Positions 4,065 to 22,130 of a stretch of DNA of 64,000 nucleotides are shown here, piece after piece. The notes below the pieces were generated by a model that was given only the letters and a program-made list of their open reading frames with translations, searched no databases and was not told the DNA's origin. Made by a program: the position numbers and the translations under genes. Source of the DNA: Nodosilinea sp. P-1105 (GTDB taxonomy: Bacteria; Cyanobacteriota; Cyanobacteriia; Phormidesmidales; Phormidesmidaceae); assembly GCF_012911975.1 (NCBI RefSeq), contig NZ_SMDQ01000028.1, positions 1-64,000 of the forward strand. Reading direction: 5' to 3'. How positions within the stretch are numbered: the stretch's first letter is position 1; each line of letters starts with the position of its first letter.

Positions 4065-4219
4065 GGCTACCTGGCAGCAATCTGACTACCGCTGCTGAGG
4101 GTGTCAGGTATCAGGTGTCAGGTGTCAGGAATAGTTAGCTGTCCTCTGCCTTTTGCCTTTTGCCTTTTGCCTTCCGCCCTCTGCCCTCTGCCTCGTTACA
4201 CCGCCTTACCCCACTAACT

Positions 4220-5473
4220 ATGATTAAAAACGACGCCTGGATTCATAAAATGGCCACCGCTGGGATGATTCATCCCTTCCAACCATCCCTAGTTAGACAT
4301 GTGGAGCAAGGAGACAGTGGCCCGGCCCAAGCCGTGATTAGCTATGGGCTTTCATCCTACGGGTATGACATTCGTCTATCCCCGGCAGAGTTTCGTATCT
4401 TTCGCCACATTCCTGGCACCGTGGTCGATCCCAAGCGCTTTAGCCCCGACAACCTGGAACCCACGGCCCTGAAAACCGATGATAGCGGCAGCTACTTTAT
4501 TTTGCCGGCCCACTCCTATGGTCTCGGGGTGGCCCTGGAAAAAATTGCAGTACCCAACAACATCAGTGTGATTTGCATTGGCAAGTCTACCTATGCCCGC
4601 TGTTTTCGGGGAGATACCCGGGTGGCTTTGGTAGATGGTACAGCTCCAACCTTGGCAGACATGGCCGAGCGATCCCGGCAGGGAGAACTATTTTGGGGCT
4701 ACAGTATTGGTCCCCATGGGCGGCTGATGGTTACTTTGCTGGAGCAACCCCGCTATATCGGGCATGATTCACTCATCGAGATTGTGCTGGATAACGATGA
4801 GTCCATTTTTTGCACCCCTGATCACCAGTTTTTAACCCGTGATGGGCGTATGGTTGAGGCACATCAGCTAAGACCCCAGGACTCTCTGATGCCGCTTTAT
4901 CGCCACCTAGCTAGGGGCTATGAAATGGTGTATCAACCGCTCAACGGCCATCTCTACCCAACCCATCGTCTGAGTGATGAATGGAATCTACGCCACGGTA
5001 TCTATGCCGCTCAACCCAATAGAACTGGGTCCATTCGAGGTGCCGCTCGGTATCTGAATTGTGATCGATCTGTGTTTAGGCGATTTCCAGAAGAGATCCG
5101 GGCGTTCCGAGGCCAAGACGCCAAGAGCACCGCAGGGTATAGAAACCATAAAGTAGCGGCCGTACGTGATGTAGCCGGAACCCATGATGTGTACTGCCTC
5201 ACTGTGCCTGAAGCTGGAAACTTTGCCTTAGAAGCTGGGGTTTTCGTTCATAACTGCGGCATTATTGCCAACCTGACCCCTGCCGAAGCGGGTTGGCGAG
5301 GGCATTTGACGTTGGAGTTCTCTAACTCCTCCAGTGCCGACTGCCGCATTTATGCCAACGAGGGTGTTGTCCAGTTGATTTTCTTTGAAGGGGAACCCTG
5401 CCAAGTCAGCTATGACACTCGCCAGGGCAAATACCAGGACCAGGGGGAGCAGGTCACCCTGGCTAAGGTATAA
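4220..5473 (+). CDS. dcd: dCTP deaminase interrupted by an in-frame intein
   Basis: Exteins: MIKNDAWIHKMATAGMIHPF...YGLSSYGYDIRLSP...VCIGKSTYAR / CGIIANLTPAEAGWRGHLTLEFSNSSSADCRIYANEGVVQLIFFEG. ATG at 4220 rather than the ORF start 4160. Confidence 0.95.
   Translation: MIKNDAWIHKMATAGMIHPFQPSLVRHVEQGDSGPAQAVISYGLSSYGYDIRLSPAEFRIFRHIPGTVVDPKRFSPDNLEPTALKTDDSGSYFILPAHSYGLGVALEKIAVPNNISVICIGKSTYARCFRGDTRVALVDGTAPTLADMAERSRQGELFWGYSIGPHGRLMVTLLEQPRYIGHDSLIEIVLDNDESIFCTPDHQFLTRDGRMVEAHQLRPQDSLMPLYRHLARGYEMVYQPLNGHLYPTHRLSDEWNLRHGIYAAQPNRTGSIRGAARYLNCDRSVFRRFPEEIRAFRGQDAKSTAGYRNHKVAAVRDVAGTHDVYCLTVPEAGNFALEAGVFVHNCGIIANLTPAEAGWRGHLTLEFSNSSSADCRIYANEGVVQLIFFEGEPCQVSYDTRQGKYQDQGEQVTLAKV
4601..5254 (+). 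other. Intein (218 aa) within dcd, inserted after ...GKSTYAR and before CGIIANL
   Basis: Begins Cys (CFRGDTRVALVDG), block B-like CTPDHQFLTRDGRMVEAHQL, C-terminal HDVYCLTVPEAGNFALEAGVFVHN followed by +1 Cys; frame maintained. Confidence 0.95.
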
Positions 5474-5625: not shown

Positions 5626-6078
5626 CTACGACACCCTGACTAAAACCACATTTTCCTCGATTTTAGCTTCAAACTGACCTAGAGCCTGGCTGGCTGGCCC
5701 AGCGGTGACATCACCATCAGCATCAAACTGAGATCCATGGCAAGGACAAGCAAATAATCCCTGATCATCCTCCCAAGCTACGGTGCAACCTTGGTGGGGA
5801 CATAGGGCATCAACGGTAATGAGGGTGTCTGGGTTATCGGGACTACGAATAACTGCTACAGTTTGGCCCTGGAAGGAATTGCTAGAGAGGGACCCAGTGG
5901 CATCTAGCTGATCAACTGTGCCCAGGGCGGCAAAGCCATCATCTCGGGAGGAACCGTTAGGGGCAATATCCTGTGCAGCAGTGGTGGTGGAGTCATCGGT
6001 TTGGCAGGCGGCGATCGCGATCGGTAGAGTACTGGCCAGAAGCCCGAGGCTAAGCAGGTTGAAGTGGCGGCGGTTCAT
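5626..6078 (-). CDS. Rieske [2Fe-2S] domain lipoprotein
   Basis: N-terminal signal ending IAIAAC (lipobox); CPHQGCTV and CPCHGSQF cluster motifs. Confidence 0.93.
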   Translation of the reverse strand: MNRRHFNLLSLGLLASTLPIAIAACQTDDSTTTAAQDIAPNGSSRDDGFAALGTVDQLDATGSLSSNSFQGQTVAVIRSPDNPDTLITVDALCPHQGCTVAWEDDQGLFACPCHGSQFDADGDVTAGPASQALGQFEAKIEENVVLVRVS

Positions 6079-6260
6079 AGAGAGTGGATGGGTAGAGGGG
6101 CGATGGGTGGTAAACGCGGAGCGCCTTCCCGCAGGGTAGGAGGGACGGCGTAGGGGCGGATCTGGGTATCCGCCCTATCCCGAGGAATTGGGAGATGGGG
6201 AGTTTTGAGTTAGATAGGGAAGGAACAGATCGAGGTGTCCGCCCAGAGGAAGTAAGTAAC

Positions 6261-7946
6261 CTAATTTTCTGGAGAATATTGGGTTACGGTCTGGGGCCAG
6301 CGCAGCCAGCCCTTGTGGCGGGCGGCAGTGACCAGTACAAACAGTAGATCTAGGCCAACGACACTGGCGATCGCCAGTTCAGAACCGCCAGTGCCAAAGC
6401 CGTAGCTGTGTAGCCCGGTGCCCAGGACAAAATTGACCCCGTACCAGGCCATCAACACCCCATTGAACGAAACAACGCTGGCAACGGTGAGGCCGAAGTC
6501 ACCAATCCAGCCCACCAGGCGGCCGTGCAGGGGGGCCAGGTAGCACAGCAGGGCAATCAGAGCCCAGGTTTCCTTCGGATCCCAGCCCCAGAATCGGCCC
6601 CAGGAGAAGTGCGCCCAAATCCCCCCCAGGATGATGCCAGCGGTCAGCAGCAGCACCCCCACTTGCAACACCTGATAGTTCAGCTGGGAGAGGGTTTTAA
6701 TTCGTCCTTTGGCCTGGGGGGTAAACAGGTAGTTGCCCAGGGTAAGGTGGCCTAGGCCCAGGGCTAAGGCAAAGCTGGCGTAGCTAAGGGCGATGGTAGG
6801 CACATGGATACTCAGCCAAAAATTATCCCGCAGTACCGGTACCAGGGGTGAAATGCTGGGATCGAGCACGGCGGGCAGGCTATCGGCCAACACCAGACAC
6901 ACCACGGCCAGGGGGGCCGCCACCAGCAGGTAGTAACGACGGCGAGAGATGAGCTCAAACATCAACGCGATCGCAGCAATGCCAAAGCCCACCCACACGA
7001 CTGACTCGTACATGTTGGTTACCGGCGGCCGTCCGGCAATCTGCATGCGCAGGAAAAAGCCGTAACTTTGCACCGCAATACCAGCGGTAAACAGGCCTAG
7101 GGCACTCCAGTAGACTGGCCAGCGCAGGCTTAGCAGCATCGCCCCCAACGCCAACGCATAGAGCTGCCAAGCCTTGCCAAAGGGATGAAAGTGGTTAAAG
7201 TGCACTTCCTCGGCCAGCTTTGCTTGATTGGGATAGATCGTCGGGCTCAGCTGTTGCAGTCCAGCCTTGAGGTCGATCGCCAGCTGCCCCACCAGCGGCA
7301 GGTGATTCCCATGGCTGAGTAGGCTTTGCTGCATCATGGCAAACTGAGCCAGCAGCGGTGCCACGGCGTCTGGATCATAGTATTGCTGAGCCGTTGCCAG
7401 CCCTACCCAGGTACCCTTGCTATCTGTGGGGTGGGGTACGATCGGCAGTTGCTGATCTCCCACGGTTTGATACAGCAGATTCACCCGGTCTTCTACGGTC
7501 AGAGCCTCCCGCTGATTGCGGCTGAGATCATCGTCGTTGATCTGCTGCTGGTGGGCCTGCTGCACCAGTGCCCCCAAGGCACCGTTCCCCATCAGTTCCT
7601 GAAAGGTAAACTGCTTGCGGTCTAAGTCCAGACCCACCGCCTCCTTCAGGGGCCGATAGCTGACTAGAATAAACGGCTCCTCGTTCCAGTTGCGGGTGTT
7701 AAACCACAGTTGTAGGTAGGTACTGAGGTAGTCCTGGGTCTCTCCCTCTGGGGGCTGATAGGTGGTAGCACCGTGAATTTGGGCCACGGTTTCCTTGGCC
7801 ACCGTGTCCAGGGGTTTCTTGCGACCATCTAGCTGCACGGCTAAAGTGCGCAGAGGGTCTAAACCATCGGGTTGAAACTGGCTCAGGGGTATGATCAACA
7901 CCAGGCAGCCGAGGCAGAGTCCGATCAGAAATTTGGTTAGGTTCAT
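6261..7946 (-). CDS. ccsA: System II cytochrome c biogenesis protein, CcsA/ResC type (WWD family) with extended N-terminal region
   Basis: WGRFWGWDPKETWALIALLCYLAPLHGRLVG WWD motif, multiple TM helices; about 230 aa N-terminal extension with QLDGRKKPLDTVAKETV. Confidence 0.92.
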   Translation of the reverse strand: MNLTKFLIGLCLGCLVLIIPLSQFQPDGLDPLRTLAVQLDGRKKPLDTVAKETVAQIHGATTYQPPEGETQDYLSTYLQLWFNTRNWNEEPFILVSYRPLKEAVGLDLDRKQFTFQELMGNGALGALVQQAHQQQINDDDLSRNQREALTVEDRVNLLYQTVGDQQLPIVPHPTDSKGTWVGLATAQQYYDPDAVAPLLAQFAMMQQSLLSHGNHLPLVGQLAIDLKAGLQQLSPTIYPNQAKLAEEVHFNHFHPFGKAWQLYALALGAMLLSLRWPVYWSALGLFTAGIAVQSYGFFLRMQIAGRPPVTNMYESVVWVGFGIAAIALMFELISRRRYYLLVAAPLAVVCLVLADSLPAVLDPSISPLVPVLRDNFWLSIHVPTIALSYASFALALGLGHLTLGNYLFTPQAKGRIKTLSQLNYQVLQVGVLLLTAGIILGGIWAHFSWGRFWGWDPKETWALIALLCYLAPLHGRLVGWIGDFGLTVASVVSFNGVLMAWYGVNFVLGTGLHSYGFGTGGSELAIASVVGLDLLFVLVTAARHKGWLRWPQTVTQYSPEN

Positions 7947-8041
7947 GGTTGGTGGGGGAGATGGGGGAGATGGGGGAGTGATGGAGTGGGGAATCGGGTA
8001 GGGGCAGACTGGTGTGTCTGCCCTGGCGGGTAACGAGGCCG

Positions 8042-9823
8042 TTATTTGGTGACAGCAGCTGGGGCCAGGTCTGGAGTAGGGGCTTGGCTGGATACTACAG
8101 ATTCGGGCTGAGGGGTGGAGACCTTGGGGTGGCGGAACCGTTTAGTTACGGCGGGACCATAGAACATGACAGCGATGCCGCTAACCACCAGCAAAGAGCC
8201 GATCCAGGTGAGCGCGGTGACCCACCAGGGTTCTCGTTTGAGCTGCAGGGTAGACTGCTTCAGGTCTCCAGGATTCCAGGAGGCTTGGGCCAGTTTCCAG
8301 CCTTTGAACCAAGTGGGATGATTCATCCAGACAGAGCGCTGGATGGCCTTTTCTGCCTGGGGGTCGATTAGGGTGATTTGACTAGTCCACATGGCTACCG
8401 ATTCGCTGCCCTCGTTGCGTTCGACGATGAAGTCATCGAGCTTTACCCAAAAGGGCAGCTGTAGAAGTTTGGGGCTAAACGCCGCCAGGTAGGGACCGTC
8501 CTTTGTCCTTAGGGCGGTGGGTTCCCCCCAGGGCAGCCACTGGTCTTGGCCGTCGGGGGTAGCCACATGCAAGGCTGGATTTCCCTGGCCTGCGGTCACT
8601 GCACCGTTGACTGGGGTAACAGGCACCACCTGCCGCTGCACCTGGGCCTGCTCCAGAGTCTCAACTAGAGAAATTTCGAAGTCGGCCCAGCCAGGGGCAA
8701 CGGCGATACCAGGCTGTAGCGGACCCTGAGTGAACCCCTGGGACGAGCGGGCGGCATAAAAGAGTTTATGGGAGGGAGAGACCACCACCCGAAAATAGTC
8801 AGCGGCGGTAGAGCTAGGGGGGGCATAGGTCACTGATAGGGAAAGGGTATCGCCAGAGCGCACGGGCTCAAAGTCATCTCGGCCAAACACAAACCAACGT
8901 TCCTGTACATCTCCCTGGGTGAGGTTGATCTGCACCGCCGGATTGCGTACCTGATTAGAGGCGGAGATCGGCTGGTTATTGGCGTCCAGGCGGAAGTCTG
9001 GCCAGAATTGGGTAAGGGTGAGTTCAAGGTTGTTGGCCAAGGCCAGGGTTTTTCCCATCTGCTGCTGCACATCGATGGGATCGTTGCCATCAATCTGCAA
9101 TGTGCCCCAGGCCGGTGTCGGGGCCGGTGGGCTGAGCAGCTGATCAAGTTCTTCTAGGCTCTGGGCCTGGACAATTTCAAGCTGGGCCGGGCCAATATCA
9201 ACCTGGCGATACATGGCAGGGGCCAGGGCTAGCCATCGCTCTAGGGTTTGGTCCATGCGATCGCTGGTTAGCCGCAATTTCACCGCTGGATTGTCTACCC
9301 CGTCCGCTTCCTCGAAGCGAACGGTCTTGATCGCCTGGTCGCTATAACCCAACAACTGTAGGCCAGCCAACTGAGCCGGGGTAACCGAACCATCGGGGCG
9401 AACCCAGACATCGGTCTGCTGAGGGCTTTGGCCCGGAGCAACCACTTCTAATAGATCGCCCTCTACCCGAATTTGATTACTGGGACCGCTGTCGGTGCGT
9501 ACCAATAACATCCCTTCGGTGCTGAGATGAATCACCGCTGCTGAACCGGCAATAATCACAATTAATCCCCAGTGGGTCAGGGCAAAGCCGATTTTTCTGG
9601 TCCCCCGCCAAGGATAGCGGCTGAGGGTAGATAGCCCTAGATTTACCGCCAGCAAAAACATCAATGCGCCGAACCAGGGACTCTTATAAACCAGTTGTTG
9701 TACAGTCCTCGACCCTACACTAGATTCATAAAAAGTCGCCCCGATTAAAATAGCAGCGATCGCGATTAATAACGGCACAGCCAGGCGCACTGACCCTAAA
9801 AAACGGATTAACTGAACGACCAT
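8042..9823 (-). CDS. ccs1: System II cytochrome c biogenesis protein, Ccs1/ResB type
   Basis: RFLGSVRLAVPLLIAIAAILIGATFYESSVG...WFGALMFLLAVNLGLSTLSRYPW...THWGLIVIIAGS; C-terminal TM GLLVVSGIAVMFYGP; partner of the adjacent CcsA. Confidence 0.9.
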   Translation of the reverse strand: MVVQLIRFLGSVRLAVPLLIAIAAILIGATFYESSVGSRTVQQLVYKSPWFGALMFLLAVNLGLSTLSRYPWRGTRKIGFALTHWGLIVIIAGSAAVIHLSTEGMLLVRTDSGPSNQIRVEGDLLEVVAPGQSPQQTDVWVRPDGSVTPAQLAGLQLLGYSDQAIKTVRFEEADGVDNPAVKLRLTSDRMDQTLERWLALAPAMYRQVDIGPAQLEIVQAQSLEELDQLLSPPAPTPAWGTLQIDGNDPIDVQQQMGKTLALANNLELTLTQFWPDFRLDANNQPISASNQVRNPAVQINLTQGDVQERWFVFGRDDFEPVRSGDTLSLSVTYAPPSSTAADYFRVVVSPSHKLFYAARSSQGFTQGPLQPGIAVAPGWADFEISLVETLEQAQVQRQVVPVTPVNGAVTAGQGNPALHVATPDGQDQWLPWGEPTALRTKDGPYLAAFSPKLLQLPFWVKLDDFIVERNEGSESVAMWTSQITLIDPQAEKAIQRSVWMNHPTWFKGWKLAQASWNPGDLKQSTLQLKREPWWVTALTWIGSLLVVSGIAVMFYGPAVTKRFRHPKVSTPQPESVVSSQAPTPDLAPAAVTK

Positions 9824-10410
9824 AATTATTCACAAACAGTTGTCGAAGTTAATCCACACCTTTCCGGCTTTACCCATTTTCTTTTGTATAAATAGCTGCA
9901 AAATAATCAAAAAAAACTGGAAAAATGCAAAGCTTGCACCACCTTAATGCGCTATTCACATCATCGAGGCAATGGGCTTGACTATGCATAATAGCCATGG
10001 AATTCATGCGATTTACGGATATTTAATCGCCTCTCTGTAGCCTTATTTACAAAAAAACTGGGATTTACCCCATAGTCTCAGTAGCAAGTTGATTTTCTAG
10101 GTAGCCGCGATCGCGAATACCTGTGTGGCGCTATAGTTGCGTTGCAATATTTGCTTTTCCCAGGCAAATCTAATATTCAATGATTTGCTGGGCTGGCTTA
10201 GAGTTTTCTTGAGAGTTTCCTTGGAAAAATAACAGCCTCCAGTCTAGAGAAACGACAAGTGTCTTCTTTCTGTCTGCCAAACTTGGACAGGTTTCCCTGC
10301 TTAGTTTGATAGTGGATTGTGGCGTTTTTCTGACGTTGATACTCTGAAATCTTGCAATCTAAGTTTTTGGCACCTAGCTTCGTACTTTACTTAGGAGATT
10401 GGTAGATCCT

Positions 10411-10890
10411 ATGACTACCCATGTTGAGAGTTCCCCGCAGCCTCCGACATTGCAGGTGACGCTGCTAGAGGAAAGCTTTTCCCAGGTTAAACCCCAGGCC
10501 AATGAGTTTGCCAGCAGCTTTTACGACAACCTGTTCACCGACTATCCAGCGGCTAAACCCCTATTCGCGAGTACAGATATCACCGCCCAAAGTAAAAAAC
10601 TGCTGGCTTCGCTAGTATTTGTAGTCGAAAACCTTAAACAGCCCGAAGCCCTGAGCGAGGCGCTGAAAGGTCTAGGCGCCCGCCATGTGGAATATGGGGC
10701 CTTACCCGCGCACTATCCCCTGGTGGGTAACAGTCTGCTCAAGACCTTTGAACAATACTTAGGCGGCGGCTGGACTCCAGAAGTAAAGCAGGCCTGGGTC
10801 GATGCCTATGGCGTCATTACCGAGGTCATGTTAGAAGGTGCCGATTATTCCCCAACTGATGTGGAGTTGGAGAGTACCCCAGAGGGATAA
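10411..10890 (+). CDS. Bacterial haemoglobin-like globin
   Basis: LLEESFSQVKPQANEFASSFYDNLFTDYPAAKPLFASTDITAQSKKLLASLVFVVENL...LGARHVEYGALPAHYPLVGNSLLKTFEQYLG...WVDAYGVITEVML (proximal His in RHVEYG). Confidence 0.93.
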   Translation: MTTHVESSPQPPTLQVTLLEESFSQVKPQANEFASSFYDNLFTDYPAAKPLFASTDITAQSKKLLASLVFVVENLKQPEALSEALKGLGARHVEYGALPAHYPLVGNSLLKTFEQYLGGGWTPEVKQAWVDAYGVITEVMLEGADYSPTDVELESTPEG

Positions 10891-10893
10891 CCC

Positions 10894-11541
10894 ATGGTGC
10901 CGAACAGCTCCCGCTGGTTCAGCTGGAAAAACCTGATTAGCTTCCGTGTCGCCATGGTGGTGTTTTGTCTGGTGCTAGTGGCCTGGTTTGGAGCGGCCTT
11001 TGCATTAAACCAGAGGCAGATTTTTCTGCCGGGGGAAACTTCCGTTGGCCACCACCTGTTTGAGACCTCTTGCAGTTCTTGTCACCAGGCTTTTCAGCCG
11101 GTCAACAATGACGCCTGCATGAGCTGCCACCAGGCTGAATTAGCCGAAGATGCCCACGGTCCCTCCAAATTCAGAGATCCTCGTTGGGCTGCAGAGTTGG
11201 CCAATCTCGATGTAATGACCTGTACCACTTGCCACAGCGAACATGTCCACATGTTTGGCCGCGGCGTTCACCTGCAACCCGATTTGTGTATGAACTGCCA
11301 CCAGGGCCTGATTGAGGGAGATCTGGCCAGCCATAACGGGTTTGCCCCGGATGGCTGCTGGACAGGGGGGTGCCATAACTACCATGACCAGCGCTCAATT
11401 TCCACTGGCTTTTTGCGCCGCAATATGGGGGAACCGCCGATGCTGCCGGTGCAGCAACTGCCGGAGCGTACTGTGGTGCTTCAGCGTGCCGTGGCCCCAG
11501 CCCCCGACTTGACCCAAGAGTTTTTGGAGGGGAGACAATGA
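10894..11541 (+). CDS. Membrane-anchored multiheme cytochrome c (4 CXXCH plus one CX4CH)
   Basis: N-terminal TM anchor; motifs CSSCH, CMSCH, CTTCH, CMNCH, and CWTGGCH. Confidence 0.88.
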   Translation: MVPNSSRWFSWKNLISFRVAMVVFCLVLVAWFGAAFALNQRQIFLPGETSVGHHLFETSCSSCHQAFQPVNNDACMSCHQAELAEDAHGPSKFRDPRWAAELANLDVMTCTTCHSEHVHMFGRGVHLQPDLCMNCHQGLIEGDLASHNGFAPDGCWTGGCHNYHDQRSISTGFLRRNMGEPPMLPVQQLPERTVVLQRAVAPAPDLTQEFLEGRQ

Positions 11542-12338
11542 CAGGTTTCATGGCCGGTCTACTCTCTTTGCTCTTTTGCTTGCTTTCAGGGTTGTCCTGG
11601 GCTCTTCCGGCCTGGGCTAATGGGGTCGATCAGGCCGTTGTGCAGGACGCTACTCAGCTTTGGCAGGGTAGTGCCCATGCCTTGAATGACATCAATTGCT
11701 CTAGCTGTCACCAGGCCTCTGAAACCCAGGCTTTTGTGCTCAGTCCTAAGGAGGAAAGCTGTCAATCCTGCCATCAGCAGGCGGTGGAGACGTTTCATCT
11801 GGGTAAGCACGGCATTCGTTTACGGGAGGGGCAGTCTCCCCTGACGCCAGCTTTAGGGCGGCTGCCCATGCAGGCCGAGGCCCAAGGACTGCAAATGACT
11901 TGCAACACTTGCCATGACGCCCATTCCGTTAATACGGTGCAGGCGGCGGTGGATTCGTGCCTAGGCTGCCACAGCGACACCCACTCCCTCAACTACGGTA
12001 ACTCTAGCCATAGCGAACTGTTTGCTGCCGCTAGCAGTTCGCCTCGCCCTGGCCCTGAGGCCGTGAGCTGTGCCACCTGCCATTTACCCAGGCACCAGGT
12101 AGGACAGGGAGATAGCGCCACTACCCTAGTCAATCACAACAATACCTATACCCTACTGCCCCGCGATCGCATGGTGGCAGAGGTGTGCATGAACTGCCAT
12201 GGGGTTGAGTTTAGCTACAACAGCATTTTTGACGATGACCTGGTGGAGGCTAATTTTGATCATCCCCCCACCCAAAAGCTACAGACCCTGGAAATGATGC
12301 GAGCCCTAGAGCAGCGTCGCACTGGCCAGGGCAGCTAG
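11538..12338 (+). CDS. Secreted multiheme cytochrome c (6 CXXCH)
   Basis: Signal peptide; CSSCH, CQSCH, CNTCH, CLGCH, CATCH, CMNCH; overlaps upstream gene by 4 nt (ATGA-type). Confidence 0.9.
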   Translation: MTGFMAGLLSLLFCLLSGLSWALPAWANGVDQAVVQDATQLWQGSAHALNDINCSSCHQASETQAFVLSPKEESCQSCHQQAVETFHLGKHGIRLREGQSPLTPALGRLPMQAEAQGLQMTCNTCHDAHSVNTVQAAVDSCLGCHSDTHSLNYGNSSHSELFAAASSSPRPGPEAVSCATCHLPRHQVGQGDSATTLVNHNNTYTLLPRDRMVAEVCMNCHGVEFSYNSIFDDDLVEANFDHPPTQKLQTLEMMRALEQRRTGQGS

Positions 12339-12393
12339 TTCAGGTCCGTCAAATCAGGTCTTGAACGTACACAATTTATAAGGAGAGATACCA

Positions 12394-13050
12394 ATGACAA
12401 CTGTAGAACGATGGATGGGAGCCCTTCGCACCCGCACCTTGGCCTTTATTTCGATAGTCTTAGCCGTAGCCGTAGTGGCGGCAGCCTGTGGCGGTGGCGG
12501 CGGCACCACCGCCCAAGCTGGGGGTGGAATTTCCCCTGAATTGGTTACCGACTATATTCACACTGTCTTAGAAGCAGACCGCACCGCTTATACCCGCCAT
12601 GTGGTTAACCGGGCCCAGGTACTGGAAGGGCAAACCAAAGAAGATGGTGTCGTTCCAGTAGAAGCAACGGAAGGCTGGCAGCAAACCGATGGGATTCCGT
12701 TACCGGCGCAAATGTTTCGCCTGGGCTCTGAAATTGCCAATGAGGCTGGCTATTTCACCTACAACTTAATTTCTCCCTGGTATATCAACGACAGCCAGGC
12801 CCCCAAGAGTGGCTTTGAGGAAACGGCCATGGCGGAGGTGATTGAAACCGGAGAGCCCTACAAGGACTACCAGGAGGTGGGTAACCAGCAGTTTTTCTCG
12901 GCTGTCTACCCTGATGTGGCCGTGGCAGAAGCCTGCGTTAGCTGCCATAACCAGCACCCGGTGCACCTGGAACGTTACCCCGACAAGCAGTTTGAAATGG
13001 GTGAAGTAATGGGGGGAGTGGTGATTAATATCCCCATGACCGGGGCCTAG
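12394..13050 (+). CDS. Tll0287-like (DUF3365-type) monoheme c lipoprotein
   Basis: Lipobox VAAAC; FTYNLISPWYINDSQAPKSGFEETAM; single CVSCHNQHP heme motif. Confidence 0.82.
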   Translation: MTTVERWMGALRTRTLAFISIVLAVAVVAAACGGGGGTTAQAGGGISPELVTDYIHTVLEADRTAYTRHVVNRAQVLEGQTKEDGVVPVEATEGWQQTDGIPLPAQMFRLGSEIANEAGYFTYNLISPWYINDSQAPKSGFEETAMAEVIETGEPYKDYQEVGNQQFFSAVYPDVAVAEACVSCHNQHPVHLERYPDKQFEMGEVMGGVVINIPMTGA

Positions 13051-13227
13051 ATCCCCGATGATCTGGGGCGCAGCTGCCTGTGCCCCTGCTAGTACTGACT
13101 GGCAAAAATATGACCACCGTTGCTGAGGGTGTCAGGTGTTAGGTGTCAGGAATGGTTGGCCGACTTATGCCGCAGAGTACTAGTCCGTTATTAAGTGATC
13201 TGATGTACTGTTAATCCCCCAGGGCTG

Positions 13228-13992
13228 ATGACGTTTAACCAGCAAGAGCCGCAACATCCCGACTCCCAGGTAACGGGTAACCCCTCCCCAGACATCGGGG
13301 AGCCGATATCACCTGAGTTATCGATTCCTGATAGTCAAAAAATCGCTCCCCAGCGGCGGCAGCCGCGACGGCCTAAGGGCATACGACCGACATTTAGAAT
13401 GCTGATTGGCTTGACTCTAATGACGGCGTTGCTACTGCTTCCCTTTGTGTTTAGCGATCAGTACCTCGAGATCATGCGATCGCGGGCCGTAGACCTGCAT
13501 GGTGTGCTGCGGGGAGGGGCCTACAAACAAATTACGGGTTTCTTAGCCGTGGGATTAGTGGCCGTTGAGATGTTGCTCACTGTTCGCAAACGCAGTCGTA
13601 GTTGGATTGGCCGGATTAAACTGCCGGGCTCGATGCAGCTATGGCGCAGTGTGCATATTTTCCTAGGCGTCGCCCTGGTGGGTATGGTGCTGATACACAC
13701 CGTAGGTGCCAACGGGTTTAACTTTAATGCCCTCTTTCTCTGGGTCTTTTTTGGCACCACCCTGACCGCCCTGGTGGGGGTCGGAGCCGAAACCGGCATT
13801 TTAGAATCCTCCCGGCAGTTTTTTGGGCGACTGCCCGGCCACCGCCGACCCCTAACTAAAGGGCCGCTGATTCGCAATCTGCGAGCGTTTTGGCTGGCTA
13901 GCCATCTCTTTTTTGTCGGGGCATTTCTGATTATGCTAGTTTTTCATATTTTTCTGGTGTACTACCACCGGGGTCCCCTGGGTCTGGGATAG
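13228..13992 (+). CDS. Cytochrome b-type (b561/DUF4405-like) integral membrane protein
   Basis: Four hydrophobic segments with paired His: SVHIFLGVALVGMVLIHTVG and ASHLFFVGAFLIMLVFHIFLVYYHRG. Confidence 0.7.
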   Translation: MTFNQQEPQHPDSQVTGNPSPDIGEPISPELSIPDSQKIAPQRRQPRRPKGIRPTFRMLIGLTLMTALLLLPFVFSDQYLEIMRSRAVDLHGVLRGGAYKQITGFLAVGLVAVEMLLTVRKRSRSWIGRIKLPGSMQLWRSVHIFLGVALVGMVLIHTVGANGFNFNALFLWVFFGTTLTALVGVGAETGILESSRQFFGRLPGHRRPLTKGPLIRNLRAFWLASHLFFVGAFLIMLVFHIFLVYYHRGPLGLG

Positions 13993-14025
13993 GGCCTGTG
14001 GATTGACGTTAAGGATGTAAAAACA

Positions 14026-14499
14026 ATGGCTATGACGGGTTTGAAAAGTCACTGGGGACAAGGCTGGCTAGCCGTGGGTTTGGTGGGTCTATTTGCGATC
14101 GCCACCCTGCTGCTGACTCGACCCCAGGCAGGCCCCAGGTTTTCTCCCCTCTCTGGCCTGATGGCCCTGCAAGCCAGCGCCCAAGCAGCCATGCCCTATG
14201 ATCAGGCCCTGGGCAGCCAAAAGCCCACCCTGATTGAGTTCTATGCCGACTGGTGCACCACCTGTCAGGCCCTTGCACCCACCCTACAGACCTTGCACCA
14301 CCGCTATGGGGAGCAGGTCAACTTTGTCATGCTCAATATTGACGACCCCCGCTGGAACCAGCAGATCGAGCAGTTCCAGGTGAGTGGCGTACCCCAGCTC
14401 ACCTTGCTGCGCCCCGATCGCTCTGTCGTTGATAGCTTTATTGGCAAGGTGCCAAAGTCTGTCTTAAGTGACAGCTTGATCACACTGTTGAAGGCTTAG
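14026..14499 (+). CDS. Membrane-anchored thioredoxin-like protein (TxlA/HCF164-like)
   Basis: N-terminal TM; YADWCTTCQALAPTL active site; VSGVPQLTLLRPD cis-Pro loop. Confidence 0.88.
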   Translation: MAMTGLKSHWGQGWLAVGLVGLFAIATLLLTRPQAGPRFSPLSGLMALQASAQAAMPYDQALGSQKPTLIEFYADWCTTCQALAPTLQTLHHRYGEQVNFVMLNIDDPRWNQQIEQFQVSGVPQLTLLRPDRSVVDSFIGKVPKSVLSDSLITLLKA

Positions 14500-14652
14500 T
14501 GCGGCAAGGTGTCAGGTGTCAGGTGTTAGGTGTTAGGTGTTAGGTGTTAGGAAGTACCCGATACCCGGATAACCCACCCCTGCCCCTTCCAGGAGGGGAT
14601 ACCGATCCCCGAAACCCAGCTTTATCACCTACCGCCATTGAGGTCCTGAACC

Positions 14653-14883
14653 ATGGCATTACTGAATCAATTCTTGAGACTATTGGAGTTTATCGAGCAT
14701 TTATGTACCGATTTAGTCGATTATGGGGACTGGCTAACCTCGTCTATAGGGCTGGTATTCAACGTTTGTCTGCTGAGTTATACCGGATTGCTGATAACTG
14801 GCTGTACAGCTCCAACAGCGGCTATATTGGCCAGCGTGGTGGCCTTAGCCTGCCACTGTGTAGTACAAGAACCTGAGGCGTAG
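14653..14883 (+). CDS. Small hydrophobic hypothetical protein
   Basis: ORF 76 aa with two hydrophobic stretches, ends directly before the ChaN-like gene; no recognised family. Confidence 0.4.
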   Translation: MALLNQFLRLLEFIEHLCTDLVDYGDWLTSSIGLVFNVCLLSYTGLLITGCTAPTAAILASVVALACHCVVQEPEA

Positions 14884-14885
14884 GG

Positions 14886-15785
14886 GTGGGTAATCGATCC
14901 TGTTCAAAACCTGTTCGCTGGAGCACCTTGGCCCTGAGTGGGTTGCTGGTGGTGGTCGCCTGCGCTTATACAGAGTCTCCCAGGGGAGTCATTCCCACCC
15001 CAGGGACTGAACAGGCATCCGAAGCCGAGTCAGCCAACCTAAATCAGTCCTTCCAACCGCTGCTCGAAGCTGATGTGGTGTATCTAGGGGAACGGCACGA
15101 CAGTGCGGCAGACCACAGGGCGCAGCTAGAGATTATCCAACGGTTGCAAGCCGAGAATGCCCAGGTGGCAATCGCCCTAGAGATGTTCCAACGCCCTTTC
15201 CAACCAGTGATTGATCGCTATCTGGCTGGAGAGATCACCGAAGCAGACTTGGTAGCCCAAACTGAATACGAACAGCGCTGGGGCTTCCCCTGGGAATTTT
15301 ATGCGCCGATTTTGCGCTTGGCCCAGGAACAGGGGTTACCGGTGTTAGCCTTGAATGCCCCCAGCGAAGTGGTACGCCAAGTGGCTCGCCAGGGGCTAGA
15401 TAGTCTAGAGGGGGATGATTTTCGCTACATTCCACCCCTCGATCAGATCGACATTACCAACGAAGCCTATCAAGCCTTTGTATTTAGTGCTTTTGGAGCC
15501 CATGGTGCCCATGGCGGCATGGACTTTGACAATTTTTTTGCCGCCCAGGTGCTGTGGGATGAAACCATGGCAGAGACCATCGCCACATTTCGTCAGGAGA
15601 ATCCTGACTATCAAGTGGTGGTGCTGGCGGGACAGGGCCACGTTGTCTATGGGTACGGTATTCCTGACCGAGTTAGCCGTCGCCTGGAATCGTCCCTAAA
15701 CCAGCACATTGTGTTGCTAAACCCCCCGGAGGCAGCCACCGAGGAAGCGGCCATTGCCGACCAGTTTTGGTACAGCCAGGACTAG
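14886..15785 (+). CDS. ChaN-family (haem-binding uptake, Tiki superfamily) lipoprotein
   Basis: Lipobox VVVAC; DVVYLGERHDSAADHRAQLEIIQRL...VAIALEMFQRPFQPVIDRYL...VVVLAGQGHVVYGYGIPDR. Confidence 0.88.
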   Translation: MGNRSCSKPVRWSTLALSGLLVVVACAYTESPRGVIPTPGTEQASEAESANLNQSFQPLLEADVVYLGERHDSAADHRAQLEIIQRLQAENAQVAIALEMFQRPFQPVIDRYLAGEITEADLVAQTEYEQRWGFPWEFYAPILRLAQEQGLPVLALNAPSEVVRQVARQGLDSLEGDDFRYIPPLDQIDITNEAYQAFVFSAFGAHGAHGGMDFDNFFAAQVLWDETMAETIATFRQENPDYQVVVLAGQGHVVYGYGIPDRVSRRLESSLNQHIVLLNPPEAATEEAAIADQFWYSQD

Positions 15786-15792: not shown

Positions 15793-16716
15793 TCAGCCGA
15801 CATTCAGCGCCCCCTGGCGGCGGAGTTCGTCTTTTTGGTCCGCAGTCAAGCCTGTGGATCCAGTAAACAAAGCACCCTTGACCTGGGCTCCAGTGAAATC
15901 GGCCCCGTTCAACTGGGCATTTTCTAGGCTGGCCTGACTGAGATTAGCCCCGACACAGTTGGCTCCGGCTAAATTAGCCAGCTCTAAATTAGCCAGGGTC
16001 AGGTTAGCCCCTCGCAAATCGGCATCCACAAGCACGGCATTCCAAAAGTCGCTATAGCTAAGCTGGGTCTTTTGCAGTAAGGCACCAGTCAAATCCGCCT
16101 GCTGAAAAATAGCACTAAGACCGTTCGCCCCTGACAAATTAGCCCCAGTCAAAATGGCGTCATTGAAATCAGCCCTTTCCAAATCAGCCTGATATAGGGC
16201 GACCCCCACCAGAGTGGCCTGACACCAGCGGGATTGGGCCAGCCGCGCCTCCCGAAAACTGGCCTGACTAAAGTTCGCTTGGGTGGCGATCGCGCCCACC
16301 AAGCTCGCCCCCTGTAATTCTGCCTGGGGCGCCTCAACATATTGCAAATCGGCACGATCGAAGTTGGCTTTAGGGGCTTTCACCGCTGTCATCGTCGCGC
16401 CATAAAACTTAGCCCCAGCGCCCCGAGCCTGGCTCAAGTTGCTGTGATCCAACGTTGCCCGGGTCAGTACCGCCCCTGCCAATTCCCCCTGTTCTAGATT
16501 GACCTCGGTCAAATCCGCCAGAATCAGGGTGGCCCCAGCAAAGTTTGTCCCATGGCACGATGCCTGGGCTAGCCGGGCCTGACGCAAATAGGCGTCTGAA
16601 AAATCTCCGCCATCCAGGATCGCACCGGTTAAGTCGATTTGGCTGAGCTCAGCTTTTTGCAGGGTTTGCCCTGTGCTCAGCCGTGTCAGCACCGCTTGAG
16701 AAGAAAGTTGCGTCAT
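15793..16716 (-). CDS. Pentapeptide repeat protein
   Basis: Repeated A(D/N)LxxA pentapeptides, e.g. ADLRGANLTLANLELANLAGANCVGANLSQASLENAQLNGADFTGAQ. Confidence 0.95.
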   Translation of the reverse strand: MTQLSSQAVLTRLSTGQTLQKAELSQIDLTGAILDGGDFSDAYLRQARLAQASCHGTNFAGATLILADLTEVNLEQGELAGAVLTRATLDHSNLSQARGAGAKFYGATMTAVKAPKANFDRADLQYVEAPQAELQGASLVGAIATQANFSQASFREARLAQSRWCQATLVGVALYQADLERADFNDAILTGANLSGANGLSAIFQQADLTGALLQKTQLSYSDFWNAVLVDADLRGANLTLANLELANLAGANCVGANLSQASLENAQLNGADFTGAQVKGALFTGSTGLTADQKDELRRQGALNVG

Positions 16717-16820: not shown

Positions 16821-16834
16821 GTAACTAAAAATAC
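16821..16834. promoter_or_regulatory. Candidate NtcA-binding site GTAACTAAAAATAC (GTAN8TAC)
   Basis: Exact GTA-N8-TAC match in the intergenic region between the pentapeptide gene and nrtA. Confidence 0.45.
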
Positions 16835-17280
16835 AAAATGTCAGGTGACATTTGAATAACTTAATAATCAAATGTTGCAGAAACAGCCTGAGAAATAATC
16901 ACTATGTTCTGCAGTATTATCCGAAATTACGACCCAGTATTTAGTATCTGAGATGACTTAATGAGTGTTCAAATGTTGATCATCACTTTTAATGGCTTCA
17001 AAGGTTTGACAATCTTGAAATAACTCAAATAGATGCTTTACACGGCTGGACTAATTTATCAACCCCAAAGGGTAAGTCATGCTTGGCTGTGCTAAGTTCT
17101 TAACCCAAATCTAGATGTTGAACTTGACTTAGAGTTCCAGTTAATCTTTCATTCAGACGGCTGGTTGGGTTCGTCTATTTAGCCGAGTTCAGTATTCATA
17201 CTGCGGATGCTGTTTTAGATAGAACACACTTAGGAGTACTTTCGAAGATCTTAGGAGTTTGCCCCTTGGGTTAGGTTTAG

Positions 17281-17468: not shown

Positions 17469-18773
17469 ATGACTCGATTGAATCGCCGTAGGTTTTTAAT
17501 GACAACTGGTACGGCTGCTGCTGGCACGTTGTTGCTTCATGCTTGCGGTCAAAATGATCCTGGGTCAACCTCTCAGGTTGACGTAGAGATTGATCCTGCC
17601 GACGCCCCAGAAACCCCCACCGCCAAGCTCGGATTTATTGCCCTGACGGACTCAGCCCCTCTGATCATCGCCTACGAGAAGGGCTTCTATGCTAAGTACG
17701 GCATGACCGATGTCTCTGTAGAGAAGCAGGCATCCTGGGGCACCACTCGGGACAACCTGGTGCTGGGATCTGGGGGTGGCGGCATTGATGGGGCGCACAT
17801 CTTAACCCCCATGCCCTACTTGATTTCTGAGGGCATCGTCACCGATGGTCGCAAGGTACCGATGTATATCTTGGCTCGTTTGAACGTCAACGGCCAGGGG
17901 ATTTGCTTATCCAATGATTATGCCGATCTAAACGTCGGTGTGGATAGCACACCTCTTAGTGACGCATTTGCTCAGCGTAAAGCGGCTGGGGCTGATCTGC
18001 GGGCCGCCATGACTTTTCCCGGTGGCACCCACGATCTCTGGATTCGCTACTGGTTGGCAGCGGGCGGCATTGACCCCGATCAAGATGTGTCGACCATCGT
18101 TGTTCCGCCGCCCCAGATGGTGGCTAATGTGCGTGTCGGCAATATGGATGCCTTCTGTGTGGGTGAACCCTGGCCTCTACAAACAGTGAACCAAGATGTT
18201 GGCTACAATGCCTTGACCACCGGAGAAATTTGGCGAGATCACCCAGAGAAGGCCCTAGGTATGCGGGCTGATTGGGTTGATCAGAATCCTAAGGCGGCTA
18301 AGGCGCTGTTGATGGGTACTTTAGAGGGGCAAATGTGGTGTAGCCAGCCTGAAAATAAAGAGGAAATGTGCCAGATTCTCTCTCGGCGAGCCTGGTTTAA
18401 TGTGCCTTTTGAAGACATCATTGACCGCTCGGTGGGCAAGTTTGACTTTGGCAATGGCAGAGTAGAGGAACTGCCAGATTTGATGCAGAAATACTGGGAT
18501 GATTACGCTTCCTATCCTTTCAAGAGTCACGACCTGTGGTTCTTAACCGAAAATATTCGCTGGGGTTACCTACCGGCTGATACCGATATCAACGCCATGG
18601 TGGAAGCTGTCAATCGGGAAGATCTGTGGCGTGAAGCCGCCGAGGCAATCGGTCAAGCTGACATGATTCCTGAAAGCACCTCCCGAGGTGTAGAGACCTT
18701 CTTCGACGGGACTATCTTCGACCCCGAAGATCCCCAAGGCTATCTAGACAGCCTTGACATTAAGCGGATTTAA
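17469..18773 (+). CDS. nrtA: Nitrate ABC transporter substrate-binding lipoprotein
   Basis: TAT/lipobox N-terminus; GGGGIDGAHILTPMPYLISEG, PGGTHDLWIRYWLAAGGIDPD, SHDLWFLTENIRWGYLPADTD characteristic of NrtA. Confidence 0.93.
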   Translation: MTRLNRRRFLMTTGTAAAGTLLLHACGQNDPGSTSQVDVEIDPADAPETPTAKLGFIALTDSAPLIIAYEKGFYAKYGMTDVSVEKQASWGTTRDNLVLGSGGGGIDGAHILTPMPYLISEGIVTDGRKVPMYILARLNVNGQGICLSNDYADLNVGVDSTPLSDAFAQRKAAGADLRAAMTFPGGTHDLWIRYWLAAGGIDPDQDVSTIVVPPPQMVANVRVGNMDAFCVGEPWPLQTVNQDVGYNALTTGEIWRDHPEKALGMRADWVDQNPKAAKALLMGTLEGQMWCSQPENKEEMCQILSRRAWFNVPFEDIIDRSVGKFDFGNGRVEELPDLMQKYWDDYASYPFKSHDLWFLTENIRWGYLPADTDINAMVEAVNREDLWREAAEAIGQADMIPESTSRGVETFFDGTIFDPEDPQGYLDSLDIKRI

Positions 18774-18852
18774 GCGTTTTCTCTGCCTCCGTGGCTAAAG
18801 CCGTGGAGGTAAACCCTCTTTCCTGCCGTAATCTCTGGAGATCAAACCATCC

Positions 18853-19698
18853 ATGACTGCACCCCTTGATGTTCGGCCCACGCGATCGCGCTTTACCCCC
18901 CAGCGGTTACTTGGTCATGTTCTGCACCAAATTAAAGAGTTGATCCCAGCTGCGATCGCATTCCTGATTTTCCTGGTGATCTGGCAAATTTTTACGATGA
19001 GCCCCGATGCCAATTTGCCTAGCCCAGTGCGCACCGTGACTGAAACCTGGGAACTGATTATCAACCCATTTTTTGACTACGGTGGTAATGATAAAGGCTT
19101 GTTCTGGCAGGTGTTCACCAGTTTGCAACGGGTAGCTTTGGGCTTTTCCTTAGCCGCGATCGTTGGTATTGGCTTAGGCATCTTGATCGGCACCAGCAGC
19201 CTGATGTACAAGGCCCTGGACCCGCTATTTCAAATTTTGCGTACCATCCCCCCCCTGGCCTGGTTACCCATTTCTTTGGCCGCGTTTCAACAGGCTAACC
19301 CAGCGGCTATTTTCGTAATTTTTATTACGGCAATCTGGCCGATCATCATCAATACTACAGAGGGAGTGCTGCAAATTCCCCAGGACTATAACAACGTAGC
19401 CCGAGTATTGCGGCTCTCAAGGCGCGAGTACTTCTTCAAGATTCTGTTTCCATCCACTGTCCCCTATATTTTTACGGGTTTACGGATTGGCATTGGTCTG
19501 TCTTGGCTGGCGATCGTGGCTGCAGAAATGTTGATTGGCGGTGTCGGTATTGGGTTCTTTATCTGGGATGCCTGGAATAGCTCTCGCATGAGCGACATTA
19601 TTATCGCCATTGTCTACGTGGGTATTGTGGGGCTGTTGCTAGATCGACTGATTGTGTTTATTGGAGGCTTGGTCTTGCCGGAAGAGCAGAAGCAGTAA
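18853..19698 (+). CDS. nrtB: Nitrate ABC transporter permease
   Basis: Binding-protein-dependent permease; EYFFKILFPSTVPYIFTGLRIGIGLSWLAIVAAEML EAA loop region; position between nrtA and nrtC. Confidence 0.92.
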   Translation: MTAPLDVRPTRSRFTPQRLLGHVLHQIKELIPAAIAFLIFLVIWQIFTMSPDANLPSPVRTVTETWELIINPFFDYGGNDKGLFWQVFTSLQRVALGFSLAAIVGIGLGILIGTSSLMYKALDPLFQILRTIPPLAWLPISLAAFQQANPAAIFVIFITAIWPIIINTTEGVLQIPQDYNNVARVLRLSRREYFFKILFPSTVPYIFTGLRIGIGLSWLAIVAAEMLIGGVGIGFFIWDAWNSSRMSDIIIAIVYVGIVGLLLDRLIVFIGGLVLPEEQKQ

Positions 19699-19891
19699 TC
19701 AACGCTTCGTTCAGTGGGCAGTGCCCGCCATTTCATTCCCGGTTTCCCAAAATTAATCTGTGATTCTGCCAAAAGTTTGTGGTGGGCGATGCCCACCCTA
19801 CCCTCTCATCGTCAACATGCATTCATTCAACATTCCCTAAAAGGGACCTCCGAAATCCTGCTGTTCGTCTGCACTCTATTCCTGTCGCACC

Positions 19892-21892
19892 ATGGCTGTT
19901 TTTGTTGAAGTTGACCACGTCGATCGCGTCTTTAAACTGCCCGAAGGGGGTCAGTATATTGCCCTGAAGAACATTGATCTGCAAGTTCATAAGGGGGAGT
20001 TTGTTTCCCTAGTGGGCCACTCGGGCTGTGGCAAGTCTACCCTGTTGAACATTCTCTCGGGGCTCGATAAACCCACCGTTGGGGGCATTGTGCTAGAAGG
20101 GCGGCAAGTGACCGAGCCCGGTCCCGATCGCATGGTGGTGTTTCAAAATTACTCCCTGCTGCCCTGGCTGACGGTGCGAGAAAATATTGCCCTGGCGGTG
20201 AACCAGGTGATGCAAAAGCATCCCAAACCGGTGCGCAACCGGATGATCGATCACCATATTGAGCTGGTTGGCCTACAAAAAGCGGCCCACAAGCGGCCTG
20301 GGGAAATCTCTGGGGGTATGAAGCAGCGGGTAGCCATTGCCCGAGCTTTGGCGATTCGGCCGAAGCTGCTGCTGCTGGATGAGCCTTTTGGTGCCCTCGA
20401 CGCCCTTACCCGGGGCGGGCTACAAGAGCAGCTCATGAAAATCTGCCAGGAAAATGAGGTCACCTGCATCATGGTCACCCACGATGTGGATGAGGCCCTG
20501 CTGCTGTCTGACCGGGTAGTGCTGATGACCAACGGCCCCGAAGCCCATGTGGGCCAGATTGTGGATGTGCCCTTTCCGCGACCCCGGGAGCGGATGGAGG
20601 TGGTGAAGCACCCCAACTACTACAGCCTGCGCAACGAGATTGTCTACTTCTTAAACCAGCAGAAGCGGGCTAAGCAGCACAAGGCCAAACCCGTGGTGGC
20701 GATGGCGGCCAACGGCCTGGAAAAGGTGAATCTAGAACTGGGCTTTATTCCGCTGGTCGACTGTGCCCCGCTGGTGGTGGCCAAAGAAATGGGCTTTTTT
20801 GAGGCCCACGGTCTGGCTAATGTCACCCTGAATCGAGAACCCAGCTGGAATGCGATCGCCGATGGGGTCACCACCGGTCGCCTGGATGCCGCCATGATGG
20901 TGGCAGGCATGCCCCTGGGCATTACCCTGGGCTACGGCAACCAGCGCCCCCGACCCATGGTCAGCGCCCTTACCCTCAGCCGCAACGGCAACGCCATTAC
21001 CTTTAGCAAGCACCTCTACGACCAGGGGGTCCGCTCCCTGGCAGACTTCAAAGCTGCCCTGGATCGCCGTCCCGACCAAGTCCACACCCTGGCGGCGGTA
21101 CACCCCACCTCCATGCATAACCTGCTGCTGCGCTACTGGCTGGCCAGCGGTGGCATCGACCCCGATCGCGATGTCAGTGTGACGGTAATTCCCCCAGCCC
21201 AGATGGCCTCAAACTTGAAGGCGGGCACCATCGACGGCTACTGTGTTGGCGAGCCCTGGAATGTGCGGGCGGTGCAGGAAGGCATAGGGGTGGTGATGGC
21301 CATCGACAATGACATTTGGCCTGGCCACCTTGAAAAAGTGCTAGGGGTGACCGAAACCTGGGCCAACCAGTACCCCAAAACCCATGTGGCTCTGGTTAAA
21401 GCCCTGCTCGAAGCCTGCGAATACTGTGACGATCGCCGCAATCGGGAAGAGATTGCTGAGTTGCTGGCTCGACCCGAGTATGTGGGCGCGTCAGAACCCT
21501 ACATTCGCCAGGGTTTCCTAGATCCCTATGACCGGGGCGACGGCAGCGAGCCCAGCCAGGTGCTGAACTACATTCAGTTCTTTACCGGCAAGGCCAACTA
21601 CCCCGATGTGTCGGAGGCCGTCTGGCTAATGACTCAGATGGCCCGCTGGGGCATTACCCCCTTCCCCCGAAACTGGCTGGAAGTGGCGGAGCGGGTGAAG
21701 CGGGCCGATATCTTTGGCCAGGCTGCTCGAGAACTGGGGCTGCTGGATATTGGCCGCGATCGCCGTCCCACCCAGCTCTTTGATGGCATCCAGTTTGATC
21801 CTGACGAACCGCTGAAATATCTAGAGAAGTTTGCCATCAAGCGCGACCTGCGGATTGAAGAAGTGCCGATGGAGTCTGTTTCAGTTTCTTAA
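19892..21892 (+). CDS. nrtC: Nitrate ABC transporter ATP-binding protein with C-terminal NrtA-like domain
   Basis: [39 protein letters not shown]-terminal NrtA-like half [22 protein letters not shown]...[16 protein letters not shown]. Confidence 0.95.
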
Positions 21893-22030: not shown

Positions 22031-22032
22031 CC

Positions 22033-22112
22033 CATCCACCCATCCACCCATCCACCCATCCACCCATCCACCCATCCACCCATCCACCCATCCACCCATC
22101 CACCCATCCACC
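22033..22112. repeat. 8-bp tandem repeat (CATCCACC) x10
   Basis: Ten exact consecutive units between nrtC and nrtD. Confidence 0.97.
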
Positions 22113-22130
22113 CACACACCTACCCAGACT

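Follow-up and report, generated by a model that had tools for sequence, protein, structure and literature searches.

A conserved globin, eleven-haem cytochrome and haem-Cache module of cyanobacteria and other phyla under predicted nitrogen or nitric oxide control

Within a 64,000-nucleotide stretch of DNA from Nodosilinea sp. P-1105 (RefSeq assembly GCF_012911975.1, contig NZ_SMDQ01000028.1, positions 1 to 64,000 of the forward strand), here called the window, lies a cluster that combines a globin, two multihaem c-type cytochromes, a Tll0287-like haem-Cache lipoprotein, a cytochrome b and genes for haem attachment. The source genome is 6.0 Mb in 195 contigs. The cluster is an ancient module and not a local oddity, and its globin operon follows a predicted promoter of the nitrogen regulator NtcA. 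The features of the locus are as follows (ORF, open reading frame).

10037 to 10078, plus strand: predicted NtcA-type activated promoter, with GTAGCCTTATTTAC at 10037-10050, a 22-nt spacer and the -10 box TAGTCT at 10073-10078; faces the globin operon
10411 to 10890, plus strand: single-domain globin (Pfam PF00042, 1.6e-19; ORF taken from 10399)
10894 to 11541, plus strand: mhcA, membrane-anchored pentahaem cytochrome c (4 CXXCH + CX4CH), corresponding to the N-terminal section of the 11-haem protein found outside cyanobacteria
11538 to 12338, plus strand: mhcB, hexahaem cytochrome c (6 CXXCH), corresponding to the C-terminal section of the 11-haem protein found outside cyanobacteria
12394 to 13050, plus strand: Tll0287-like haem-Cache lipoprotein, axial Cys replaced by Pro102 (Pfam, 7.2e-18)
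13228 to 13992, plus strand: di-haem cytochrome b membrane protein with invariant His143, 157, 226 and 240, homologous to the C-terminal domain of a fusion protein found elsewhere
14026 to 14499, plus strand: membrane-anchored thioredoxin (WCTTC), a cyanobacterial accessory (Pfam Thioredoxin, 4.8e-19)
14653 to 14883, plus strand: small hydrophobic protein of no known family, kept in at least 15 relatives
14886 to 15785, plus strand: ChaN-like haem-binding lipoprotein, a cyanobacterial accessory kept in a subset of relatives (Pfam ChaN, 1.5e-73)
15793 to 16716, minus strand: pentapeptide-repeat protein, syntenic in many relatives; module membership uncertain
8042 to 9823, minus strand: ccs1 (ResB-like), module-specific second copy (Pfam ResB, 2.2e-15, 56.9 bits, above cut-off)
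6261 to 7946, minus strand: ccsA-like with a long N-terminal extension, module-specific second copy (Pfam Cytochrom_C_asm, 1.9e-30, 106.6 bits, above cut-off)
5626 to 6078, minus strand: Rieske lipoprotein, a cyanobacterial accessory syntenic in at least 22 relatives (Pfam Rieske, 7.6e-13)
16821 to 16862, plus strand: second predicted NtcA-type promoter (full pattern match), before nrtABCD; internal positive control
17469 to 22970, plus strand: nrtABCD nitrate/nitrite ATP-binding cassette transporter (TIGR01183, 358 bits; TIGR01184, 422/388 bits; above cut-offs)

The genes named in a first-pass annotation of the window were all recovered at about the positions it gave, with families backed by Pfam, and its haem counts for the two c-type cytochromes hold. 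Cytochrom_c3_2 is matched in both mhcA and mhcB. The DUF4405 match of the b cytochrome is weak (3e-4, under the Pfam cut-off), but its four His are invariant across lineages, enough for two b haems. ATG at 10411 is a likelier start of the globin than TTG at 10399. Packing on the plus strand is tight, with a gap of 3 bp between globin and mhcA, an overlap of 4 bp between mhcA and mhcB, and a gap of 2 bp between the small ORF and ChaN. Between the globin and the divergent minus-strand Rieske-ccsA-ccs1 genes lie 587 bp of AT-rich sequence (GC 0.40 vs 0.55 around). The nrtABCD genes adjoin the module here but are not a conserved neighbour in other cyanobacteria; between nrtC and nrtD there is a short tandem-like repeat stretch (21880-22180; minus-strand translation GWMGGWVD...).

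Relatives were sought in 85,462 species genomes. Of the 161 found, 80 were kept, and 59 of these are cyanobacterial contigs; those from elsewhere include Thiobacillus, Marinobacter and other Proteobacteria, Dadabacteria, Poribacteria, Planctomycetes/Phycisphaerales, and Cerasicoccus and Pelagicoccus of the Verrucomicrobiota. Synteny of the module holds in over 55 cyanobacterial contigs and in some 40 from other groups. Cyanobacteria hardly depart from the order globin(s)-mhcA-mhcB-Tll0287-cytochrome b-thioredoxin, in which one to four globins stand in tandem; many contigs of this comparison are truncated. The Rieske-ccsA-ccs1 genes lie either upstream and divergent or downstream, and the small ORF, ChaN and the pentapeptide-repeat protein are frequent extras. 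Orthologues of mhcB (55-73% identity) were detected in 37 of 390 sampled Cyanobacteriia genomes, representing 18 of 159 genera, and globin-mhcA-mhcB-Tll0287-cytochrome b(-thioredoxin) is present in about 10% of Cyanobacteriia genomes. The cluster had been proposed at first pass to be one functional island, with a neighbourhood search across cyanobacteria as the check; the module is conserved there, and synteny and co-occurrence support the proposal.

The CcsA/Ccs1 pair resembles the ordinary System II pair in its Cytochrom_C_asm and ResB families. Another pair, evidently the housekeeping one, is found elsewhere in the genome (ccs1 at C57, 5e-76; ccsA at C192, 2e-72) and fits these families far better, so the pair in the window is an extra, divergent copy. 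Unlike ordinary System II genes, it is almost wholly confined to module-bearing genomes. Ccs1 of the window type gave 35 strong matches in Cyanobacteriia, 33 of them in genomes with mhcB (Fisher p=4e-41). The idea that the pair is itself the housekeeping copy was thus rejected, and the earlier expectation that maturation genes travel with their multihaem clients is borne out in cyanobacteria. Presumably the pair attaches haem to the c-type cytochromes of the module.

One of the two exceptions, genome G201, carries a partial locus (L218, G201:C1) that keeps ccs1, ccsA, Rieske, ChaN, cytochrome b and thioredoxin genes near transposase-like ORFs, while globin, mhcA, mhcB and Tll0287 are lost. It is a natural deletion, useful for asking what the remaining genes do alone. 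Within the genus of the window, none of the 27 other genomes has mhcB, but short remnants of ccs1 and Rieske, lying next to each other, are left in the congener G036 (L217, G036:C135, 7208-7487). The patchiness therefore suggests loss, and a recent horizontal gain in the present genome is not favoured.

Outside cyanobacteria the module takes a compact form. There, mhcA and mhcB are one fused protein of about 450 residues with 11 haems, and because the split proteins here have a fused homologue elsewhere, the two very likely act as one 11-haem unit. The cytochrome b is likewise part of a larger protein, of about 650 residues, and forms its C-terminal domain; the first 470 residues of this protein match residues 1-465 of NirB, which comprise the flavin adenine dinucleotide (FAD), NAD(P)H and BFD [2Fe-2S] regions. 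The likeness to the N-terminal half of NirB and to NorW-type FAD reductases (TIGR02374, NF003437) lies in FAD plus BFD; unlike NirB (TIGR02374), the fusion has no sirohaem sulfite/nitrite reductase half and carries the di-haem membrane cytochrome b instead. It points to pyridine nucleotide rather than quinol as the input to cytochrome b in these phyla. The NirB-like part is absent in cyanobacteria and in Dadabacteria, where the cytochrome b stands alone.

The compact order is FAD/cytochrome b, 11-haem protein, Tll0287, often a class I cytochrome c, and a single-domain or truncated globin; in Opitutae the genes are permuted. The globin is usual, not universal, in the compact form of Proteobacteria, Verrucomicrobiota, Planctomycetes, Dadabacteria and Poribacteria. 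The compact form was detected in 26 of 321 genomes sampled from the class of Thiobacillus (two being already-known carriers), and sampling across Verrucomicrobiota gave no new strong match. The compact form has no Rieske, thioredoxin or ChaN gene and mostly no ccs genes, so these are cyanobacterial extras and not core. The first-pass annotation had drawn a path from quinol through the b cytochrome and Rieske to multihaem c, with Rieske, thioredoxin and ccs genes as parts of the island. What remains from this proposal is a relay of c haems outside the cytoplasm, connected to a b cytochrome with two haems, whereas the quinol-to-Rieske route is not supported and these genes fall outside the core.

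The haem-binding motifs, four CXXCH, one CX4CH and six CXXCH, are conserved across the split and fused proteins. In addition, exactly 11 further His are conserved at 98-100% (A53, A88, A117, A147, A164, B47, B91, B129, B149, B158 and B200, with A and B for mhcA and mhcB), so that by counting there would be one invariant His as candidate distal ligand for each of the 11 c haems. Every motif ends in CH, CX2CK is not conserved, and the set contains no catalytic haem with a Lys ligand or an open site. With a candidate distal His for every haem, the c part is most likely an electron wire, and catalysis must then sit elsewhere. Profile searches against solved structures gave weak, partial matches to octahaem nitrite reductases, NrfA and ActA-like cytochromes. 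The likeness to these, and to DmsE/MtrA and NrfB, consists in paired CXXCH repeats, while the module protein differs in its 11 haems, its CX4CH motif and its operon. Octahaem nitrite reductase and NrfA also differ in their Lys-ligated or open catalytic haem, and nitrite reductase activity of the 11-haem protein was rejected as the leading explanation on the same ligand evidence.

Two further candidates were set aside. A general need of the CX4CH motif for a lyase of its own is not supported, as non-cyanobacterial copies share it without linked ccs genes, except at locus L126. An extracellular conduit of the Mtr type is not favoured either: no porin or other outer-membrane family recurs among the clustered neighbours of the module, although no search aimed at barrels was made. 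The Uet conduit of Tenderiales and Gallionella also has an eleven-haem cytochrome, but its descriptions set it apart by a porin, trihaem cytochromes, NHL proteins and a peptidyl-prolyl isomerase, and give no link to a globin, Tll0287 or an FAD-cytochrome b fusion (PMC5371394, PMC10734462).

The Tll0287-like protein is a candidate for the catalytic position. It shares the PF11845 domain and the CXXCH within it with the Tll0287/DUF3365 haem-Cache family (PDB 5B82; PMC12889525), and a PDB search with the protein gave no match. Differing from canonical Tll0287 (PDB 5B82), it stands alone, as a lipoprotein whose gene lies in an electron-transfer operon, and has Pro at the position of the axial Cys. 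The residue is Pro in 57 of 57 cyanobacterial module copies and Pro (11) or Val (3) in 14 others, while the genome's own canonical paralogue, at C184, retains the Cys. Canonical stand-alone Tll0287 has His/Cys ligation, and the protein of P. putida binds NO (nitric oxide) weakly; tight NO binding and slow release are seen in a HAMP-domain relative that has no such Cys (PMC12889525). The Cys-less haem of the module is accordingly a candidate open, ligand-binding site, but this is a lead and not proof, because a Cys-to-Ala mutant of the P. putida protein still released NO quickly, and tight binding did not follow from the mutation alone (PMC12889525).

The globin is the sole PF00042 globin of the genome. 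Its closest solved structures are Hell's Gate globin (3s1i/3ubc), followed by VHb and flavohaemoglobins, and Gln60 (E7), His92 (F8) and Tyr102 are conserved (helix positions assigned by eye). The suggestion that it is of an NO/O2-binding type is thereby supported.

NtcA-activated promoters of cyanobacteria carry GTAN8TAC centred near -41.5 (PMC3898017). GTAN8TAC occurs in 32 of the 47 regions of 450 bp that precede the first globin, whereas dinucleotide shuffles gave 2.4 +/- 1.6 (maximum 9 in 300 shuffles), and GTA/TAC spacers other than N8 gave 0-4 matches upstream of cyanobacterial globins. The full pattern was defined as GTAN8TAC, 21-24 nt and then TAN3T upstream of the gene, the -10 box lying about 22 nt downstream. 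It is present in 24 of 48 cyanobacterial upstream regions, compared with a mean of 1.4 in random windows of the same loci (maximum 6 in 200 draws) and with 4 of 48 on the opposite strand. With other genes of the same loci as controls, it precedes the module in 23 of 47 cases but a control gene in just 1 of 112 (p=1e-13); related contigs in these counts are not fully independent, and the positives span many genera, including the loci of Xenococcus sp. PCC 7305 and Moorena bouillonii PNG. Both strands of the window hold only two full patterns, one before the globin (10037) and one before nrtA (16821). Operons of the nrtABCD type are known to be controlled by NtcA, and the globin operon would appear to stand under a canonical NtcA-activated promoter.

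Other lineages have other regulators. Among 34 loci of the Thiobacillus class and other proteobacteria, 13 have an ANTAR regulator of the NasT type no more than about 10 kb away, in many cases immediately upstream and in the same orientation (three assignments confirmed by Pfam, plus one confirmed at L195); NrtA/NrtB-like transporter genes occur in 14, and true NirB in five. At L195 the order is NasT-globin-FAD/cytochrome b-11-haem-Tll0287-NrtA-NrtB-ATPase-NirB, all on one strand. An NsrR-like Rrf2 regulator adjoins the module in the Opitutae loci L114, L115 and L121 and in L201. Three different regulators in three lineages make a strong case, on genomic evidence, for nitrogen or NO control of the module. 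Neither this regulation nor the residue change in Tll0287 figured in the functional reading of the first-pass annotation.

Apart from the module, the window encodes an 840-residue protein (36362-38884) with cyclic-nucleotide-binding, sigma-54-activator-type AAA and NapH-like membrane 4Fe-4S domains. The nearest NCBIfam models of its AAA domain are NorR and NifA. Cyanobacteria are not known to have sigma-54, which makes this fusion unusual.

Being under nitrogen or NO control, the module probably deals with NO or nitrite formed during the use of nitrate. We lean, with a little more confidence than doubt, towards a membrane electron relay, induced together with nitrate assimilation, that deals with NO or related nitrogen oxides in the periplasm as well as in the cytoplasm. 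Electrons would enter cytochrome b from a cytoplasmic donor, NAD(P)H through FAD/BFD where these are fused, quinol or another donor in cyanobacteria, and would be passed across the membrane to the 11-haem wire. The wire would deliver them to the Cys-less Tll0287 haem in the periplasm, which may bind or reduce NO (or nitrite/hydroxylamine), while on the cytoplasmic side NO would be removed by the globin, a role that Bjgb plays in Bradyrhizobium. Haem attachment to the wire would fall to the dedicated CcsA/Ccs1 pair and the thioredoxin, and ChaN possibly holds haem. Composition, conservation, co-occurrence, promoter pattern, neighbourhoods and ligand residues are observations; from them we infer the direction of electron flow, the substrate, the partner contacts and the role of Rieske.

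The closest precedent is narK-bjgb-flp-nasC of Bradyrhizobium, in which a NasT-controlled single-domain globin and a flavoprotein detoxify NO arising as a by-product of nitrate assimilation (PMC4724949). The two systems share a single-domain FHb/VHb-type globin and nitrogen-responsive control, sequence-inferred in the present case. The FAD pyridine-nucleotide reductase of the Bradyrhizobium operon is absent from the cyanobacterial module and appears in fused form in most non-cyanobacterial loci. The Bradyrhizobium system, however, is confined to the cytoplasm and lacks cytochrome b, multihaem c and haem-Cache proteins as well as ccs genes.

Several points weigh against the NO-handling relay. 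No recognisable catalytic NO or nitrite reductase domain is present in the module, and the P. putida mutant leaves the open-site argument weak when taken alone. The signals to which NtcA and NasT respond are nitrogen status and nitrate/nitrite rather than NO. The full NtcA pattern is lacking in about half of the cyanobacterial loci, those of the near relatives SIOISBB, RL_3_1, Adonisia and PCC 7375 among them, so that regulation may differ among them or sites may have drifted. The NrtA-like transporter beside many proteobacterial copies scores under the nitrate cut-off, which makes its substrate uncertain. Structure prediction gave no help: the AlphaFold2 model of the 11-haem protein was too poor for a fold search (predicted local distance difference test score 52.6), and with that of cytochrome b (72.5) the best fold match was no better than E 0.8.

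Alternatively, the module could be a nitrogen-regulated electron sink or redox balancer, discharging surplus reductant through cytochrome b and the 11-haem wire to a periplasmic or extracellular acceptor, with NO incidental and the globin serving O2 supply or protection. All the c haems look like pure electron carriers, an NAD(P)H-type domain is fused to cytochrome b in other phyla, and the class I cytochrome c of many non-cyanobacterial copies is a possible outlet. Nevertheless, the lack of a recurring outer-membrane component among the clustered neighbours, regulators of three lineages that point to nitrogen oxides, and a Tll0287 residue change that such a sink leaves unexplained render it unlikely, though it deserves serious attention. 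We regard as improbable that the relay gives or takes electrons for nitrate or nitrite assimilation itself, for instance as partner of a nitrate reductase, with the globin in a protective role. The location of the module inside nas operons at L195, L127 and L132, its NirB-N-like FAD/BFD domain and the precedent of Flp, which serves NasC (PMC4724949), would agree with this. However, the relay faces the periplasm and assimilatory reductases are cytoplasmic. The cyanobacterial NarB and NirA moreover use ferredoxin, and about 90% of the sampled cyanobacterial genomes are without the module, yet nitrate assimilation is widespread in that group.

Quite improbable, too, is that Tll0287 serves for sensing and not as the terminal redox partner, the module being a redox- or NO-sensing device that adjusts respiration. 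Relatives of Tll0287 and Cache-haem proteins fused to signalling domains are NO sensors (PMC12889525), but the module protein is a stand-alone lipoprotein without a signalling domain, and it always lies beside an 11-haem wire that a sensor does not need. Finally, chance clustering of haem genes around housekeeping ccs genes is hardly credible, given the separate housekeeping copies, the synteny across cyanobacterial and other contigs, and the co-occurrence at p=4e-41.

Elsewhere in the window, a dCTP deaminase gene (4160-5473) contains an in-frame intein (Intein_splicing, 1e-13) flanked on both sides by the deaminase halves, and a CueO-like multicopper oxidase gene (515-2571) diverges from a MerR-type regulator, assigned by eye. 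A CP43-like/IsiA-type chlorophyll antenna gene (25049-26224) lies near a Dps-like gene (23929-24432, by eye); both types are typically tied to iron stress. Lactate permease-like and L-lactate dehydrogenase-like genes are adjacent at 28083-30740 (by eye from translations).

The module is apparently undescribed, as no published account of the cluster was found in the open literature, subscription papers being mostly outside the search. Its parts belong to known families and the nitrate/NO-globin theme has precedent, yet there is a real chance of a new class of complex. Specifically, it is possible, though we would not call it probable, that the cytochrome b/11-haem relay to an open-site haem-Cache protein forms an undescribed class of respiratory complex, acting as a periplasmic reductase or scavenger of NO (or nitrite/hydroxylamine), paired with a cytoplasmic globin, which oxygenic cyanobacteria and members of several other phyla would employ while assimilating nitrate.

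To our knowledge, oxygenic cyanobacteria are not noted for multihaem respiratory chains, and their handling of the NO that arises from nitrate assimilation is not well understood. A conserved relay tied independently to three nitrogen/NO regulators makes this handling directly testable in named strains, with Leptolyngbya sp. PCC 7375, Xenococcus sp. PCC 7305 and Moorena bouillonii PNG among the carriers. The module also provides a naturally occurring example of cytochrome maturation genes reserved for a multihaem client, and offers a biological setting for the Tll0287/haem-Cache family.

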